Source: a virus. From it: a stretch of DNA of 20,324 bases. Both the position numbers and the translations under genes were made by a program. A model generated the notes under the pieces. That model saw nothing but the letters and a program-made list of their open reading frames with translations. It was not told where the DNA came from and searched no databases. Below, piece by piece: positions 2,163 through 19,931 of the stretch. Where the stretch lies: positions 1-20,324 of IMG/VR virus record IMGVR_UViG_3300001097_000099; one strand, given 5' to 3'. Position 1 is the stretch's first letter. Each line of letters opens with the position of its first letter.

Positions 2163-2735
2163 TTAGGATAAAGCATAACGCAGGTTCTCTAACTCCCCGT
2201 CTAGCCACTCCGTGAAGTTCCCTAACGACTCTTGGGGAACATGCACCCCGACACCCATACTGAACACGTTAGAGGTCGAATCCATGATTATTGCCACATC
2301 AACAGGGCTTTCACTCTTAGCAGTCAACAAGGATTCAGCCCACTCATTAAAAACTTGTTTCCTATCAGCCGTCGGGTCACCCCAACCTCCCGTTGTCCAA
2401 CCGTCGAATACTTCAACCCAACCCTCAATACTGGTTTCGTTGTATCCCCTCCACGAACTCGTGTTTTTGTAAACACGAGACATTTTCAAATCATCGAAAG
2501 ATTCCCCGTAACGGTTTTCAACAAAATTTTCGCTCACATACACGGTGACAGGTTTTTCGTCGTAATCGAACTCGTAACCCGGCCCAACCAAATAAACCGT
2601 TGACGCGCTGTTACGGTCATCTATGTAGCAGCCCTCACAGAATGTTTTACCGGATGATTCACTACCGTAAAACACGTCGTCGTCAGAATTGATCAGGTCA
2701 GTGCAATTGTCACACTTAAAAGTTTTTTCACTCAT
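2163..2735 (-). CDS. Hypothetical protein with an N-terminal zinc ribbon (190 aa)
   Basis: C-D-N-C at about residues 8-11 and C-E-G-C at about 34-37 form a LIM- or ribbon-like zinc knuckle. The remaining 150 residues are acidic and aromatic-rich (many Trp, Tyr, Asp) with no motif I recognise; a V-D-V-A-I-I-M-D stretch near 145 looks like a buried strand. The ATG at 2735 overlaps the upstream stop as ATGA, which favours it over the ATG four codons earlier. It is part of the leftward early cassette and presumably co-translated with the 72-aa gene before it. Confidence 0.75.
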   Translation of the reverse strand: MSEKTFKCDNCTDLINSDDDVFYGSESSGKTFCEGCYIDDRNSASTVYLVGPGYEFDYDEKPVTVYVSENFVENRYGESFDDLKMSRVYKNTSSWRGYNETSIEGWVEVFDGWTTGGWGDPTADRKQVFNEWAESLLTAKSESPVDVAIIMDSTSNVFSMGVGVHVPQESLGNFTEWLDGELENLRYALS

Positions 2736-2950
2736 GATGATCCCCATTCCATTTCGGCCTCCTTCAGTGTTCGGAAGTATTTTCCGCTAAACAAAGACCC
2801 GTTTTCCCATTGCCAAATAGCAAAAGGGTGAATTTCTTGTGCCCGTGCTGCAAGCACTTTGATAAAACCGTGATAGTCACGCACATCAATAATGGTGGCA
2901 TCCCCCGTTTCCAAGGGAATCACGTCACCTACGTCAGGCACAATTCTCAT
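2732..2950 (-). CDS. Hypothetical small protein (72 aa)
   Basis: Unrecognised as a named family. The N-terminal half is beta-like (V-G-D-V-I-P-L-E-T-G-D-A-T-I-I-D-V) and the end has an F-R-T-L-K-E-A-E-M-E-W helix, a pattern common in small accessory proteins of actinophages. The ATG at 2950 overlaps the stop of the preceding gene as TAATG, and AGAGGAAA lies upstream. The stop overlaps the next ATG as ATGA. Such tight coupling on both sides supports a real gene. Confidence 0.72.
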   Translation of the reverse strand: MRIVPDVGDVIPLETGDATIIDVRDYHGFIKVLAARAQEIHPFAIWQWENGSLFSGKYFRTLKEAEMEWGSS

Positions 2951-4970: not shown

Positions 4971-5018
4971 ATTGTACTACCCCCCCTGTGTTGGCATGAC
5001 GGGGGGGTGTGATAAACT
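4971..5018. promoter_or_regulatory. Divergent promoter region with strong C/G-run inverted repeat (site C)
   Basis: The intergenic region holds 8-bp perfect arms, ACCCCCCC (4979-4986) and GGGGGGGT (5001-5008), around a 14-base loop. Leftward, a TACAAT at 4976-4971 lies 25 bases before the ATG at 4945. Rightward, TTGGCA (4991-4996) and TGA-TAAACT (hexamer at 5013-5018) have 16-base spacing and lie 33 bases before the ATG at 5052. The inverted repeat sits between the two -10-like hexamers, so one bound factor could control both arms. Confidence 0.62.
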
Positions 5019-5353: not shown

Positions 5354-5393
5354 TGCCCGACCGACCCTACCTAACCCCCCTGTTAGTCGGGCA
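5354..5393 (+). terminator. Hairpin after the 98-aa gene
   Basis: TGCCCGAC (5354-5361) and GTCGGGCA (5386-5393) are perfect 8-bp arms starting six bases after the stop codon. A competing inner stem CTAAC/GTTAG exists, which could give an alternate structure. No T-run follows; U-tail-less terminators are common in actinobacteria. It lies directly upstream of promoter-like site D, so it probably separates two transcription units. Confidence 0.5.
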
Positions 5394-5411
5394 TAACCCC
5401 CGTGGTAGAAT
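5394..5411 (+). promoter_or_regulatory. Promoter-like site D
   Basis: TAACCCCCGTGG then TAGAAT (5406-5411) matches the left arm and extended -10 element of site F (AACCCCCGTGA then TACAGT). The right G-run is degraded to TTGG. TTAGTC at 5383-5388 is a weak -35 candidate at 17-base spacing. It shares a downstream ATTGCAA with site C. It is placed 36 bases before the ATG at 5448. Confidence 0.5.
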
Positions 5412-5447
5412 TGGATTGCAAGGAAAACCCAACCAAAGGAGCCAAAC

Positions 5448-7062: not shown

Positions 7063-7078
7063 CCTGTTTGTTTTTCAC

Positions 7079-7115
7079 CCCCCGTGACACGGACGTTACG
7101 GGGGTTTAGTACAAT
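7079..7115 (+). promoter_or_regulatory. Promoter/operator site E
   Basis: CCCCCGT (7079-7085) and ACGGGGG (7098-7104) form perfect 7-bp arms with a 12-base loop. TAG-TACAAT follows, with the hexamer at 7110-7115, 24 bases before the ATG at 7140. The G-run, TAGTACAAT and GGTT downstream also occur in the leftward half of site C. It likely starts the transcript for the membrane peptide and the deacetylase-like gene. Confidence 0.58.
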
Positions 7116-7139
7116 AGGTTCAAAAGAAAGGAGCCAACC

Positions 7140-7253
7140 ATGACCGACCCCGGCTGGACAACACAAAGCATCATCACACTCATAATCGGAGTCACCGCAA
7201 CAATCGCACTCTGGGCCACATACCTGTGGTCAATCCTACAAAAAGAAGAATAG
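7140..7253 (+). CDS. Single-span membrane peptide (37 aa)
   Basis: A short N-terminus (M-T-D-P-G-W-T-T-Q-S) precedes one long hydrophobic segment, residues 11-33, and a charged end K-E-E. This is a single membrane span with the N-terminus probably outside by the charge rule. AAAGGAGCCAACC precedes the ATG. It lies directly before the deacetylase-like gene, nine bases from stop to start, and should be co-transcribed with it. It could be a partner or anchor for that enzyme, an antiholin-like peptide, or unrelated; the sequence does not decide. Confidence 0.65.
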   Translation: MTDPGWTTQSIITLIIGVTATIALWATYLWSILQKEE

Positions 7254-7261
7254 GAGAAAAC

Positions 7262-8158
7262 ATGAAAGACCTCATCATCGCCCACAGCGACTCATACGCC
7301 AACTGGATATTCGACCCCGACCACCCCACACAAGGACGACGATTCACCAACGGGTACAACGCCCTCATCATGCACATCAAATCCGAAGGGCTAACCCACG
7401 AAACCCGCGAACCAATCCCAGCCTTACGCAAATACCTCGAAACCGTCCACACACCCGCATACGTCACAGAAATTCTTTCCCAACACATAAGCGACGAATG
7501 GCTAGGGGTAAGACCCGACATGGCTCACCTAGCCGCACTCTTTGTTGGTGGAACGCAACTCGCCCTCAACGCCCTACGCAACAACGAAACACTCACAGCC
7601 GTGAACCTGCCCGGCGCTAAGCACCACGCCGCAACCGACCATTCAAGCGGATTCTGTGTGTTTGCGGATTTCGTGTTAGCAGCAAAAGAATTACGGGCTG
7701 ACGGGAAAAAAGTAGCGATCCTTGACGTTGACGCGCACCACGGTGACGGAACCGAAAACCTGTGCTTCAACGATTCTGGGATCCTCACATATTCCATTCA
7801 CGAATACGGGATTTTTCCCGGTACTGGGCTTAAAGACCATTTGAAAGAAAATGTTTACAATTGGCCTTTGGCGGGGAACGACGGGGATCGTGCCCTTTTA
7901 CAGGGAGTGAACGATTTCCTTGACGTGGCATCAGGATTCAAACCTGACTACATTTTTGTGGTAGGTGGGGCTGACGGTCATAGTTTAGATCCCTTATCCA
8001 ATCTTAATTACACGATTTCGGGGCTTGAACGTGCAATGGTCGTGGTGAGGGATTCTTACCCTGTCACACCGATTTTGTTTGGGGGGGCTGGTGGATACCA
8101 GCCTGACGGTGCCACCCCTTTAGTGTGGGCGAAAATGGTTACGGCGCTTGCCCGTTAA
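7262..8158 (+). CDS. Histone-deacetylase-superfamily amidohydrolase (AcuC / acetylpolyamine type, 298 aa)
   Basis: A complete class of zinc amidohydrolase signatures is present: G-A-K-H-H-A (118-123) with the catalytic His pair 121-122; D-V-D-A-H-H-G-D-G-T (155-164) with zinc ligands Asp157 and His159; S-I-H...F-P-G-T-G (178-189); G-G-A-D-G-H (235-240) with third ligand Asp238; and G-A-G-G-Y (275-279) with the transition-state Tyr279. The length is near that of bacterial members. Family enzymes remove acetyl groups from lysines, polyamines or small amides; the substrate here is unknown. ATG at 7262 has GGAG upstream; a GTG at 7226 inside the previous gene is rejected. The first part of the gene is C/A-rich and the last part G/T-rich. 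Its stop overlaps that of terL. Confidence 0.92.
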   Translation: MKDLIIAHSDSYANWIFDPDHPTQGRRFTNGYNALIMHIKSEGLTHETREPIPALRKYLETVHTPAYVTEILSQHISDEWLGVRPDMAHLAALFVGGTQLALNALRNNETLTAVNLPGAKHHAATDHSSGFCVFADFVLAAKELRADGKKVAILDVDAHHGDGTENLCFNDSGILTYSIHEYGIFPGTGLKDHLKENVYNWPLAGNDGDRALLQGVNDFLDVASGFKPDYIFVVGGADGHSLDPLSNLNYTISGLERAMVVVRDSYPVTPILFGGAGGYQPDGATPLVWAKMVTALAR

Positions 8159-9777
8159 ACCACCAGATTACTGAAATTGTCGCCCGTGAAATCATTCACC
8201 TGACCGAAACTAATTGGGATCACGTTAGGTACATTTCCACGCTTAGGCTCATACAAAGCCAACAGGACAGCCTCAGCCTGATCAGGGCTAGACACACCAC
8301 GGCGTTTCATTTCCACTTTCGACTCAATCTGTGTACGCCCCGCACTATCCGTTTTGAACGTCGGCCCCGCTAACTGTGACAACACTTTCCGTTCCACGTT
8401 AAGGCGAACATCTTGCCTCCCCTCATTGTTAGGTTGCAGGAGCGTCCGGCCATTCCACCACATTTCAGCCCTCATGTTCTTAAACTTTTCGTGATCCTTA
8501 GCCCTCTCAGCAACATTCACGGCAACAATCTTAGATTTATGTTTCCCTTCCGTGCCCCATTTTTGCAGCATAGACACCACACCCCAACCCACACCGATAG
8601 TGTCAATTTTTACTCGTACAGGTTCACCAATTTCACGTTTGTCGTGTTCAGCCTCAGCCTGATGAATATGTCGCAAACACACCCCGGCAACGTCAACAGC
8701 GTTTTCGTTTACCGCCCCCGATGATCTATGAATAATCTCTGTGACGAAACCGTCGGCTCGCGCTATAACGAACTCGTCACCACCATCGGATGCAATATCT
8801 ATCCCCAAACGAATCTTGTTCCCCACAAGGTGATCGTCGTTCGTCAACGAATTCTCGCACCAACTAAAAGGAATAACTTTATTTGCCGTGGAGCGCGGGA
8901 AACGCGCCCACACACGAGCCTCCACAAAAGGTGAATCCGCACCGAACTCGCTCGTAACATCATCCACCCACCTTTTATCCACCAAATGTTTAGTGATCAA
9001 ATGTTGCTCAACTTGAGGTGGACACGTTTTACATATCCCTACCGTTTCGCCCGTAAAATTTGGTGTATCAAAAGCACTAATCGTGATCGGGTTAAACAGT
9101 GGGGATTCGTAGCAACGCTCAAACCATCCGTCCTCCTGATCAGTGGGCGGGTTACCCAACAACAATAGGCGAGTGTTGCCGCCCGTCATGAGGGCTTCCA
9201 AAGCCTTACCCACCACCTCACCGATACCACCGGCCTCATCAATAATAATCAGTAAATTAGGTGCATGGATACCCTGCGTCGCGGCCTCATCGTAAGGTGA
9301 CGGAGAGAAACCGTAAGCAACAACGTCAGCCCCAACCTTCCACGTTTGAGTGAGAACCTCACCGGGTAACTTAGCCAAAAAATGACAACGCCGAATATGG
9401 GGCCAAATAATGTTTCTCACCTGACGGTGCGTAGGGGCAATCGTGATAGCCAACGCCGTACCGGGAGCGTGAGAAGCAATCCACCACGCCACAAGACGCG
9501 CAGACAAATGAGACTTACCGGGGGCATGGGACGCGGCCACAACGGTTCTCTGATTCACCACCACGGAATGAGCGATTTCGATTTGCTTCGACCACAAAGA
9601 CTCCCCTAAACCATTCTCAATAAACCCAACCGGGTCACCCTCATAAATAGCCCAAGGATTATTCACCTCCGCTTCCAAAAGCATCCCCAAAGCGTTTTTG
9701 TCATCATCACTCAACGCAGAATAAATCGCGTACCTATTCTGAGTGTCGGCACCAAGTACCTTGTCTACCAGTCTCAA
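8155..9777 (-). CDS. terL: Terminase large subunit (ATPase/nuclease, 540 aa)
   Basis: This is the DNA-packaging motor. The ATPase half has a Walker A variant A-S-H-A-P-G-K-S (82-89), Walker B L-L-I-I-I-D-E (175-181) with Glu181 as catalytic carboxylate, and a coupling motif L-L-G-N-P (206-210). The nuclease half has L-G-I-D-I-A (Asp327), K-I-D-T-I-G (Asp392) and S-P-D-Q-A-E-A (Asp499), the expected RNase H-like acidic triad. It begins one base after the small-subunit stop and ends tail to tail with the deacetylase gene. The full length suggests an intact enzyme. Unusually, the portal gene does not follow it; the downstream neighbour is the opposing rightward arm. Confidence 0.95.
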   Translation of the reverse strand: MRLVDKVLGADTQNRYAIYSALSDDDKNALGMLLEAEVNNPWAIYEGDPVGFIENGLGESLWSKQIEIAHSVVVNQRTVVAASHAPGKSHLSARLVAWWIASHAPGTALAITIAPTHRQVRNIIWPHIRRCHFLAKLPGEVLTQTWKVGADVVAYGFSPSPYDEAATQGIHAPNLLIIIDEAGGIGEVVGKALEALMTGGNTRLLLLGNPPTDQEDGWFERCYESPLFNPITISAFDTPNFTGETVGICKTCPPQVEQHLITKHLVDKRWVDDVTSEFGADSPFVEARVWARFPRSTANKVIPFSWCENSLTNDDHLVGNKIRLGIDIASDGGDEFVIARADGFVTEIIHRSSGAVNENAVDVAGVCLRHIHQAEAEHDKREIGEPVRVKIDTIGVGWGVVSMLQKWGTEGKHKSKIVAVNVAERAKDHEKFKNMRAEMWWNGRTLLQPNNEGRQDVRLNVERKVLSQLAGPTFKTDSAGRTQIESKVEMKRRGVSSPDQAEAVLLALYEPKRGNVPNVIPISFGQVNDFTGDNFSNLVV

Positions 9778-17339: not shown

Positions 17340-19476
17340 TATCATTTATACCGGAGAAGTTTCCACCCAGAAGTATCTTGCCGTCAGATTGAATGGCAAT
17401 AGTTTCTACAGTGCTGCTTGCACCGGTACCAGTGTTAGTCGTAAAAGCAGTGTCTCTAGTACCGTCAGTATTAAGCCGAACGATACGGTTAACAGTGACA
17501 CCATTGAACGTGGTGAAGGAACCACCCATGAGTATCTTGCCGCCCGACTGGACGACAATAGTTTCTACAGTGAGGTCTGCACCGGTACCAGTATTGGTAG
17601 TAAACGCAGTATCTCTCGTCCCGTCAGTGTTAAGTCTGACGATACCGTTGACGGTAGCACCATTGAATGTGGCAAATTCTCCACCCACAAGTATCTTGCC
17701 GTCAGATTGAATGGCAATAGTTTCTACAGTGCTGCTTGCACCAGTACCATTATTGGTAGTAAAAGCAGTGTCCCTCGTCCCGTCAGCATTCAGCCGAACA
17801 ATATAGTTGACGGTGACACCATTGAATGTGAAGAACAACCCACCCAGAAGTATCTTGCCGCCCGATTGGACGGCAATAGTGCGGACAGTGCTGCTTGCAC
17901 CAGTACCATTATTGGTAGTAAAAGCAGTATCTCTGGTTCCGTCAGTATTAAGCCGAACAATACGGTTGACAGTGACACCATTGAATGTGGCAAATTCTCC
18001 ACCCGCAAGTATCTTGCCATCCGATTGGACTGCAATAGTGAAGACAGTGCTGCTTGCACCAGTACCCGTATTGGTAGTAAAAGCAGTGTCCCTAGTACCG
18101 TCACTATTCAAACGAACAATACGGTTAACAGTGACACCATTGAACGTGGTGAAGGAACCACCCACAAGTATTTTACCGTCCGATTGGACTGCAATAGTGA
18201 AGACAATGCCGCTTGCACCAGTACCAGTGTTAGTCGTAAAAGCAGTATCTCTGGTTCCGTCAGCATTCAAACGAACAATACGGTTGACAGTGACACCATT
18301 GAATGTGGTGAAATCCCCGCCCACAAGTATTTTACCGTCCGATTGGACGGCAATAGTGCGGACAGTGCTGTTTGCTGCTTCTAACACAGCAAACACGGAA
18401 GTATCTCTGGTTCCGTCAGTATTAAGCCGAACAATACGGTTGACAGTGACACCATTGAATGTGGTTAAGGTACCGCCAACAAGTATTTTACCGTCCGATT
18501 GGACGGCAATGGTGTTGACAGTGGTGTCTGCACCGGTACCAGTGTTAGTCGTAAAAGCAGTATCTCTAGTACCGTCAGTATTAAGCCGAACAATACGGTT
18601 GACAGTGACACCATTGAATGTGGTTAAGCCACCACCCATGAGTATTTTACCGTCCGATTGGACGGCAATAGTTTCTACAGTGGTGCTTGCACCAGTACCA
18701 TTATTGGTAGTAAAAGCAGTGTCCCTAGTACCGTCAGAATTAAGTCTGACGATACGGTTAACAGTGAAACCCCTTAATGTGGTGAAGGAACCACCCATGA
18801 GTATCCTGCCGTCCGACTGGACGACAATAGTTTGGACAGTGTTGTTAAAACCTGTACCGGTATTGGTAGTAAACGCGGTGTCCCTAGTACCGTCAGAATT
18901 AAGTCTGACAATACGGTTAACAGTGACACCATTGAACGTGGTGAAATCACCACCCATGAGTATTTTACCGTCCGACTGGACGGCAATGGTGTTGACAGTG
19001 GTGTCTGCACCGGTACCAGTGTTAGTCGTAAAAGCAGTATCTCTAGTACCGTCAGTGTTAAGTCTGACGATACTGTTGACGGTAGCACCATTGAACGTGG
19101 TGAAGGAACCACCCATGAGTATTTTACCGTCAGATTGGACGGCAATAGTGCGGACAGTGCTGTTTGCACCGGTACCCGTATTGGTAGTAAACGAGGTGTC
19201 CCTAGTACCGTCACTATTCAAACGAACAATACGGTTAACAGTGACACCATTGAACGCGGTGAAGCCACCACCCGCAAGTATCTTGCCGTCAGATTGGACG
19301 GCAATGGTGTTGACAGTGGTGCTTGCACCAGTACCATTATTGGTAGTAAAAGCAGTGTCCCTAGTACCGTCACTATTCAAACAAACAATACGGTTAACAG
19401 TGACACCATTGAATGTGGCGAAGGAACCACCCATGAGTATCTTGCCGCCCGACTGGACGACAATAGTTTGGACAGT
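17305..19476 (-). repeat. Tandem 159-bp coding repeats
   Basis: Fourteen near-identical 159-bp units encode the 53-residue repeats. The DNA identity is high enough for unequal recombination to change copy number. The seventh unit (18367-18522) is one codon short and carries an unrelated end. Long open frames on the plus strand here are a by-product of the repeats. Confidence 0.9.
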
Positions 19477-19656
19477 GCCGCTAAAAAGGTTTGCTGTATC
19501 AAAGGTATCAAAAGAATAATCATTGTTATTGAGATTGTAAAAAGATTTCCACACACCAGCAACTCGAACCGAACCTGAAGAAACCTGCTTCCACACCCCA
19601 CCGACTTTTACAGAAGGCACTGAATCCTTCCAAATACCAGCAACTTTAACTCTCAT
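17305..19656 (-). CDS. Tail fibre / receptor-binding protein with 14 delta-60-type beta-repeats (783 aa)
   Basis: Residues 1-40 contain three copies of a V-[KR]-V-[AG]-G-[IV]-W-K motif seen at the start of phage tail proteins. From residue 61, 13 full repeats of 53 residues (one of 52) and a final partial repeat follow. Each runs T-V-x-T-I-A-V-Q-S-D-G-K-I-L, G-G-x-F-T-T-F-N-G, V-N-R-I-V-R-L-N, D-G-T-R-D-T, which matches delta-60-type beta-propeller repeats of bacterial surface proteins. ATG at 19656 overlaps the upstream stop (TAATG), preferred over a TTG at 19674. It probably binds the host surface. The downstream hairpin ends its transcript. Confidence 0.88.
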   Translation of the reverse strand: MRVKVAGIWKDSVPSVKVGGVWKQVSSGSVRVAGVWKSFYNLNNNDYSFDTFDTANLFSGTVQTIVVQSGGKILMGGSFATFNGVTVNRIVCLNSDGTRDTAFTTNNGTGASTTVNTIAVQSDGKILAGGGFTAFNGVTVNRIVRLNSDGTRDTSFTTNTGTGANSTVRTIAVQSDGKILMGGSFTTFNGATVNSIVRLNTDGTRDTAFTTNTGTGADTTVNTIAVQSDGKILMGGDFTTFNGVTVNRIVRLNSDGTRDTAFTTNTGTGFNNTVQTIVVQSDGRILMGGSFTTLRGFTVNRIVRLNSDGTRDTAFTTNNGTGASTTVETIAVQSDGKILMGGGLTTFNGVTVNRIVRLNTDGTRDTAFTTNTGTGADTTVNTIAVQSDGKILVGGTLTTFNGVTVNRIVRLNTDGTRDTSVFAVLEAANSTVRTIAVQSDGKILVGGDFTTFNGVTVNRIVRLNADGTRDTAFTTNTGTGASGIVFTIAVQSDGKILVGGSFTTFNGVTVNRIVRLNSDGTRDTAFTTNTGTGASSTVFTIAVQSDGKILAGGEFATFNGVTVNRIVRLNTDGTRDTAFTTNNGTGASSTVRTIAVQSGGKILLGGLFFTFNGVTVNYIVRLNADGTRDTAFTTNNGTGASSTVETIAIQSDGKILVGGEFATFNGATVNGIVRLNTDGTRDTAFTTNTGTGADLTVETIVVQSGGKILMGGSFTTFNGVTVNRIVRLNTDGTRDTAFTTNTGTGASSTVETIAIQSDGKILLGGNFSGINDINRSRIARLLP

Positions 19657-19931
19657 TATACATACACCAACCAAACATCCCCATCAGAACCTCCAGTAGG
19701 TACAGCGGTAGACATAGTAATTTGACGGACACCATTGGAAACCGCAGCAGTCGGAGACGCAACATTGGTGGTGCCAGTAAATGTCGGTGACGCAAGATTT
19801 GCTTTCAGGTCATCCGCCGTCGTAACAAACGCGGTACTCGCCGCTTGAGTTGTATTCGTACCAGCCGTTGCTGTGGCAACAGCAACAACCCCACTCGTAG
19901 CGTCAATATCCCCTACTGGTTTCCAAGGCAT
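19656..19931 (-). CDS. Short tail-fibre-type protein (91 aa)
   Basis: The core has T-T-Q-A-A-S-T-A-F-V-T-T-A-D-D-L-K-A-N-L-A-S-P-T-F-T split over residues about 27-51, the T-T-x-A-A-S-T-A-F-V and L-A-S-P-x-F-T-G motifs that mark phage tail fibre shafts. Low-complexity Ala/Thr/Val composition fits a trimeric fibre. The C-terminus ends G-D-V-W-L-V-Y-V. It overlaps its neighbours by one base (TAATG) on both sides, so it is translated with the beta-repeat fibre. It may form a connector or base for that fibre. Confidence 0.78.
   Translation of the reverse strand: MPWKPVGDIDATSGVVAVATATAGTNTTQAASTAFVTTADDLKANLASPTFTGTTNVASPTAAVSNGVRQITMSTAVPTGGSDGDVWLVYV

Follow-up and report, generated by a model that had tools for sequence, protein, structure and literature searches.

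The window analysed here is a stretch of 20,324 nucleotides, positions 1 to 20,324 of the IMG/VR virus record IMGVR_UViG_3300001097_000099; in the analysis it was identified with IMG/VR contig 3300001130_000106. An uninterrupted open reading frame with an ATG start and an AGGAG ribosome-binding site 5' of the ATG encodes a histone deacetylase (HDAC)-family protein of 298 aa, and the features of this locus are listed in Table 1. As the initial annotation had placed it, the gene is the last of the rightward block, and its stop meets a convergent terminase gene (8155-9777, minus strand). The one-span peptide described ahead of it was also found, with the span judged by eye, and in two related phages (L014 and L018) the HDAC gene likewise follows a peptide of this kind. 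The region of the hairpin in front of this gene pair, positions 7063-7130, folded as RNA with -24.7 kcal/mol (z -3.4). Other genes of the window were phage-like (small terminase, RusA, replication initiator, Gam-like and endolysin), and a second contig (L001) was identical to the window over 16,155 bases. The window terminase was about 52% identical to Arthrobacter phage terminases. Since it most resembles these, the host is likely actinobacterial.

Table 1. Features of the HDAC locus in the window.
Feature	Position	Strand	Basis
Terminator-like 10-bp hairpin 5' of the peptide-HDAC pair	7079..7104	+	RNA fold
-10-like TACAAT, putative promoter of the peptide-HDAC pair	7110..7115	+	
37-aa peptide with one putative membrane span and its own ribosome-binding site, directly 5' of the HDAC gene	7140..7253	+	
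HDAC-family (arginase/deacetylase fold) enzyme, phage clade A	7262..8158	+	PF00850, AlphaFold2 model, PDB comparison, tree
Catalytic His121-His122 and Lys120 (clade A signature, foot-pocket position by homology)	7619..7627	+	
Zinc ligands Asp157 and His159 (DVDAHHG 155-161)	7730..7738	+	Conserved residues
Zinc ligand Asp238 (GADGH)	7973..7975	+	Conserved residues
Catalytic Tyr279 (GGY motif)	8096..8098	+	Conserved residues

Promoter-like elements, consisting of TANAAT or TAAACT no more than a few bases after a run of at least five G or C, recurred in the window at about 4980-5010 (both strands), 5385-5420, 7087-7115 and 4460 (minus strand). These putative elements stood 5' of several gene starts in both arms. 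Similar elements were seen 5' of the HDAC gene in several related phages.

Residues 22-294 of the 298-aa protein matched PF00850 (Hist_deacetyl) with an E value of 3.6e-50 and 171.4 bits (cut-off 27.9), which is far beyond chance. The AlphaFold2 model, built with a 49-sequence alignment, reached a pLDDT of 95.2 and a pTM of 0.94. When the model was compared with the PDB using VIA-align, 5ji5 gave a Z of 38.3 at 1.9 A with 289 of the 298 residues aligned; bacterial HDAH/HDAC proteins, human HDAC2, zebrafish HDAC6 and 5zmp, the last entitled a lysine deacylase, were tied within 1 Z of it. A BFVD fold search at E <= 1e-3 returned giant-virus HDACs and one arginase only, and weaker rows were not used. 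No family was assigned to the protein by PHROGs, NCBIfam or PADLOC. The initial annotation had called this a complete enzyme of the HDAC family and had proposed structure prediction as a check; the domain match, the confident model and the Z of about 38 to solved HDACs bear this out, and its numbering of the zinc ligands, the His pair and the catalytic Tyr was correct. These features indicate an intact classical zinc-dependent member of the HDAC fold, for which deacylase activity is predicted.

The initial annotation had called such enzymes uncommon in phage genomes, and the proposed search of phage databases for homologues and neighbours upheld this for isolates: only Magritte gp204 and E3 gp202 were credible relatives among 50,697 phage records. 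It did not hold for uncultured phages, as relatives were encoded on 199, 99 and 135 contigs in three pattern scans of IMG/VR, with some contigs shared between the sets. Uncultured huge-phage records also gave weak matches to E3 gp202. Two records (MT836077.1, and OQ572411.1 of Pseudomonas phage Y10; L008, L009) were set aside, as their flanking genes look like ordinary bacterial metabolic genes and their HDAC genes are probably host DNA filed as phage. Three Staphylococcus records are probably bacterial DNA likewise. Colwellia phage 9A is named in a review as having an HDAC homologue (PMC7826561).

A maximum-likelihood tree was made of 82 proteins, with cellular reference enzymes from plasmids and one other (non-actinobacterial) phylum. 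The window enzyme fell in clade A (33 rows, support 100/100, stem 0.65), whose nearest neighbours were AcuC-like cellular enzymes, joined to it by a branch with support of 92/72. Clade A did not lie inside the AcuC (cluster 2c) branch but formed a separate 100/100 branch beside it, and it did not group with cluster-5 enzymes. Instead, clade B (23 rows, 100/99), which contains E3 and its relatives, joined the enzymes with SGGYHH and GGSHH, that is, with cluster-5/HDAC11-like motifs. As the two clades have different nearest cellular groups, the tree suggests two separate captures, the cellular sampling being thin. Microbacterium phage Magritte gp204 also belongs to clade A and is 42% identical to the window enzyme, with Lys before HisHis; unlike the window, Magritte is a 133-kb phage with other neighbouring genes, and gp204 is annotated only as a hypothetical protein. 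Rhodococcus phage E3 gp202, annotated as a putative histone deacetylase, likewise has the HDAC fold and an intact catalytic centre, but it is a clade B protein with GLHH and is only about 28% identical to the window enzyme.

Full-length proteins of both clades were reduced at 90% identity to 109 representatives, among which L108 belongs to clade B although a motif regex sorts it into clade A. Every catalytic residue was kept in all 109. The dN/dS values in close pairs were 0.03-0.35, and the phage gene is under purifying selection. The invariant catalytic residues and low dN/dS agree with the earlier expectation that the enzyme is probably active.

We compared the active site with those of characterized groups. 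The nearest cellular group, the AcuC-like or class I-like bacterial deacylases (cluster 2 of Graf et al. 2024, PMC11532494), shares with the window enzyme the fold, the catalytic residues, XGGY and FPGTG-type motifs and the lack of an L1 insertion. However, these enzymes carry GGLHH or GGMHH where the window enzyme has GAKHH, their L2 loop is much longer, and the best cellular identity to the window enzyme is only about 35-37%. The Lys before HisHis was found in 70 of 70 clade A sequences, a set defined by Lys120 itself, though a similarity search yields the same set; in 21 HDACs outside the phage clades the residue was Leu, Gly, Ser, Tyr or Met. At the equivalent position in VcHdaH, Tyr135 lines the foot pocket that holds the acyl chain (PMC11532494). 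Thus, Lys120 is probably located in the acyl/product (foot) pocket, near the conserved Arg27. A roomier foot pocket is suggested by the lack of RPP, a motif of strict deacetylases, and by the small residue that precedes GGY. The acyl group removed is probably acetyl, and Lys120 could favour another.

At the entrance, the L2 loop of the model has 12 residues, between helices 65-72 and 85-106. It is too short to be aligned with the peptide-binding Asp of AcuC (Asp91 in BsAcuC), but Glu79 is conserved nearby, and the conserved Glu79-Trp80 in or near the loop may replace the peptide-binding Asp/Glu. The gatekeeper is PLS (244-246), with Leu245 present in 70/70 of the Lys-defined set and in nearly all of clade A overall. 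A PLS gatekeeper is typical of lysine deacetylases, and PEG or PIS of polyamine enzymes (PMC11532494). Features of HdaH (cluster 1) were also absent, as the model has no L1 insertion and PGAKHH stands where RPP would be expected.

We then examined the genes beside the HDAC in relatives. An HMM-based count found a dual-specificity-phosphatase-like gene (PF00782) in 141 of 285 HDAC loci, and in 139 of these 141 it was directly upstream and co-oriented, in most cases touching or overlapping the HDAC gene. These counts are not independent, because many of the loci are nearly identical copies and one scan started from a subclade that carries the phosphatase; on the tree at least two gains are needed. 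The pairs (L075-L092, L107, L113, L126, L133 and the L156-L313 set) occurred in both clades. The PF00782 match reached 1.5e-11 in clade A but in clade B was weaker and stayed below the cut-off. By blastp, the clade A and clade B phosphatases clustered separately, and they differed in signature, RC(Q/L)(A/S)G(I/L)NRS and HCHAGISRS. In whole-record searches, the phosphatase adjoined the HDAC in 7 of 8 positive records (at a distance of up to about 0.5 kb in L095); the eighth was a 619-kb contig. An HslV/proteasome-like Ntn hydrolase gene (phrog_1040), whose product has the family's expected N-terminal TT, Asp and Lys, was found just downstream of the HDAC in one clade A group (L024-L074); in another (L075-L092) it lay immediately upstream of the phosphatase. 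Neither partner was found in the searched records of the window's own subgroup, the window contig being incomplete. A search for a GNAT partner in 32 records gave matches in 16, of which 10 were over the cut-off and several lay within long frames, and none was beside the HDAC.

The reading that we favour, with somewhat better than even confidence, is that the enzyme is an active lysine deacylase of a phage clade that strips acyl groups from host proteins during takeover. It would hydrolyse acyl groups from protein lysine side chains in the infected cell, which is probably actinobacterial, and would be expressed in time to remove post-translational modifications from host rather than phage proteins. 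In some lineages, the deacylase would be coupled to a protein phosphatase as an eraser module. Three roles had been proposed in the initial annotation, namely reversal of protein acetylation, a change in polyamine pools and an answer to acetylation-based defence. Reversal of protein acylation is favoured among them because of the phosphatase-like gene adjoining the HDAC in the 139 loci and the absence of the polyamine-enzyme features tested. Counting against it are the window subgroup without phosphatase or HslV-like neighbour and the presence of a polyamine gene near the HDAC in two records. In addition, the HDAC fold is no proof of a protein substrate, since some cluster-1 enzymes of this fold have turned to small molecules (PMC11532494).

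The polyamine gene is an S-adenosylmethionine decarboxylase (AdoMetDC, speD-like) gene, which stands a few genes after the HDAC in L056 and L057, both clade A, and is absent from the other 30 of the 32 records. It would fit an acetylpolyamine amidohydrolase (APAH) that releases spermidine or putrescine from their acetylated stores, to be used in DNA packaging or translation, as would the common superfamily and the active APAHs of giant viruses (PMC9992855). The bacterial and giant-virus APAHs (cluster 4) share fold and catalytic centre with the window enzyme, which nevertheless lacks their extended L2 specificity loop, their L1 hairpin and the PIS gatekeeper (or PEG, as in HDAC10). Moreover, an APAH-seeded functional survey of viral polyamine enzymes found homologues in Imitervirales only and none in a phage (PMC9992855). 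Both the loops and the gatekeeper speak against polyamine deacetylation, as does the scarcity of polyamine genes in the vicinity; we consider this role doubtful and protein-lysine deacylation more likely. A role against an acetylation-based host defence or toxin (e.g., a GNAT toxin), whose target the enzyme would deacetylate, is similarly unlikely. The purifying selection on a phage gene near small accessory genes is consistent with it, and the phosphatase and HslV-like genes beside it in relatives could belong to an anti-defence block; however, there was no PADLOC match and no defence partner was found. Acetylation-based toxins such as GNAT often acetylate aminoacyl-tRNA, which is not a known substrate of HDAC-fold enzymes.

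The enzyme might also be an amide hydrolase acting on a host small metabolite or cofactor; the phosphatase would then share this substrate or use a related small molecule. Lys120 would suit an acidic ligand, and phosphatases of the DSP type have non-protein substrates also. The dimethoate and propanil hydrolases are HDAC-fold enzymes for small amides (PMC11532494). The conserved short open entrance and the PLS gatekeeper argue against this small-molecule role, no shared pathway genes stand beside the HDAC, and we hold it to be improbable, if marginally less so than the polyamine role. A recent incidental bacterial gene or a contig contaminant is highly improbable. Bacteria often carry HDAC-fold genes (in one phylum, 182 of the 201 genomes sampled did so), but the HDAC adjoins terminase genes in several phages and the second contig repeats the window over 16 kb. 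The deep phage-only clade with its low identity to cellular enzymes and the recurrence in divergent phages contradict such an origin.

A narrower form of the lysine deacylase reading is that Lys120 and Arg27 of clade A hold a succinyl, malonyl or glutaryl group, an acidic acyl chain, in the foot pocket; together with the adjacent phosphatase in relatives, such enzymes would make a phage module erasing several modifications of host proteins at a time. This is a tentative proposal with a low chance of being right. The bacterial classical deacylases that were assayed in PMC11532494 left both succinyl and glutaryl groups in place, so an enzyme of this kind would have a specificity new for bacterial enzymes, and the module would be a new takeover strategy.

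Enzymes by which phages attach ADP-ribosyl, phosphoryl and acetyl groups to proteins are well known. No description of a phage HDAC family, or of any widespread acyl-removing phage family, was found in the open-access literature, from which most subscription journals are missing, and the group of the window enzyme, present in hundreds of uncultured phage contigs, is apparently undescribed. New here are the invariant Lys120, the upstream phosphatase-like partner in both clades and the HslV/proteasome-like gene near many clade A loci. Two phage clades near different cellular groups each have phosphatase-coupled subgroups, which predicts joint removal of phosphorylation and acylation from host proteins. 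These results suggest that phages with an HDAC and a phosphatase-like gene strip chemical tags off host proteins in infection.

Two other genes of the window were noted. The gene at 2163-2747 (minus strand) encodes a Cys-motif protein with a very weak LIM match, and members of its family stand directly 5' of the HDAC in 15 other phage loci. The gene at 17305-19674 (minus strand) encodes a 789-aa protein with many copies of a repeat such as NRIVRLNSDGTRDTAFTTNTGTG, which is possibly a tail or fibre protein.
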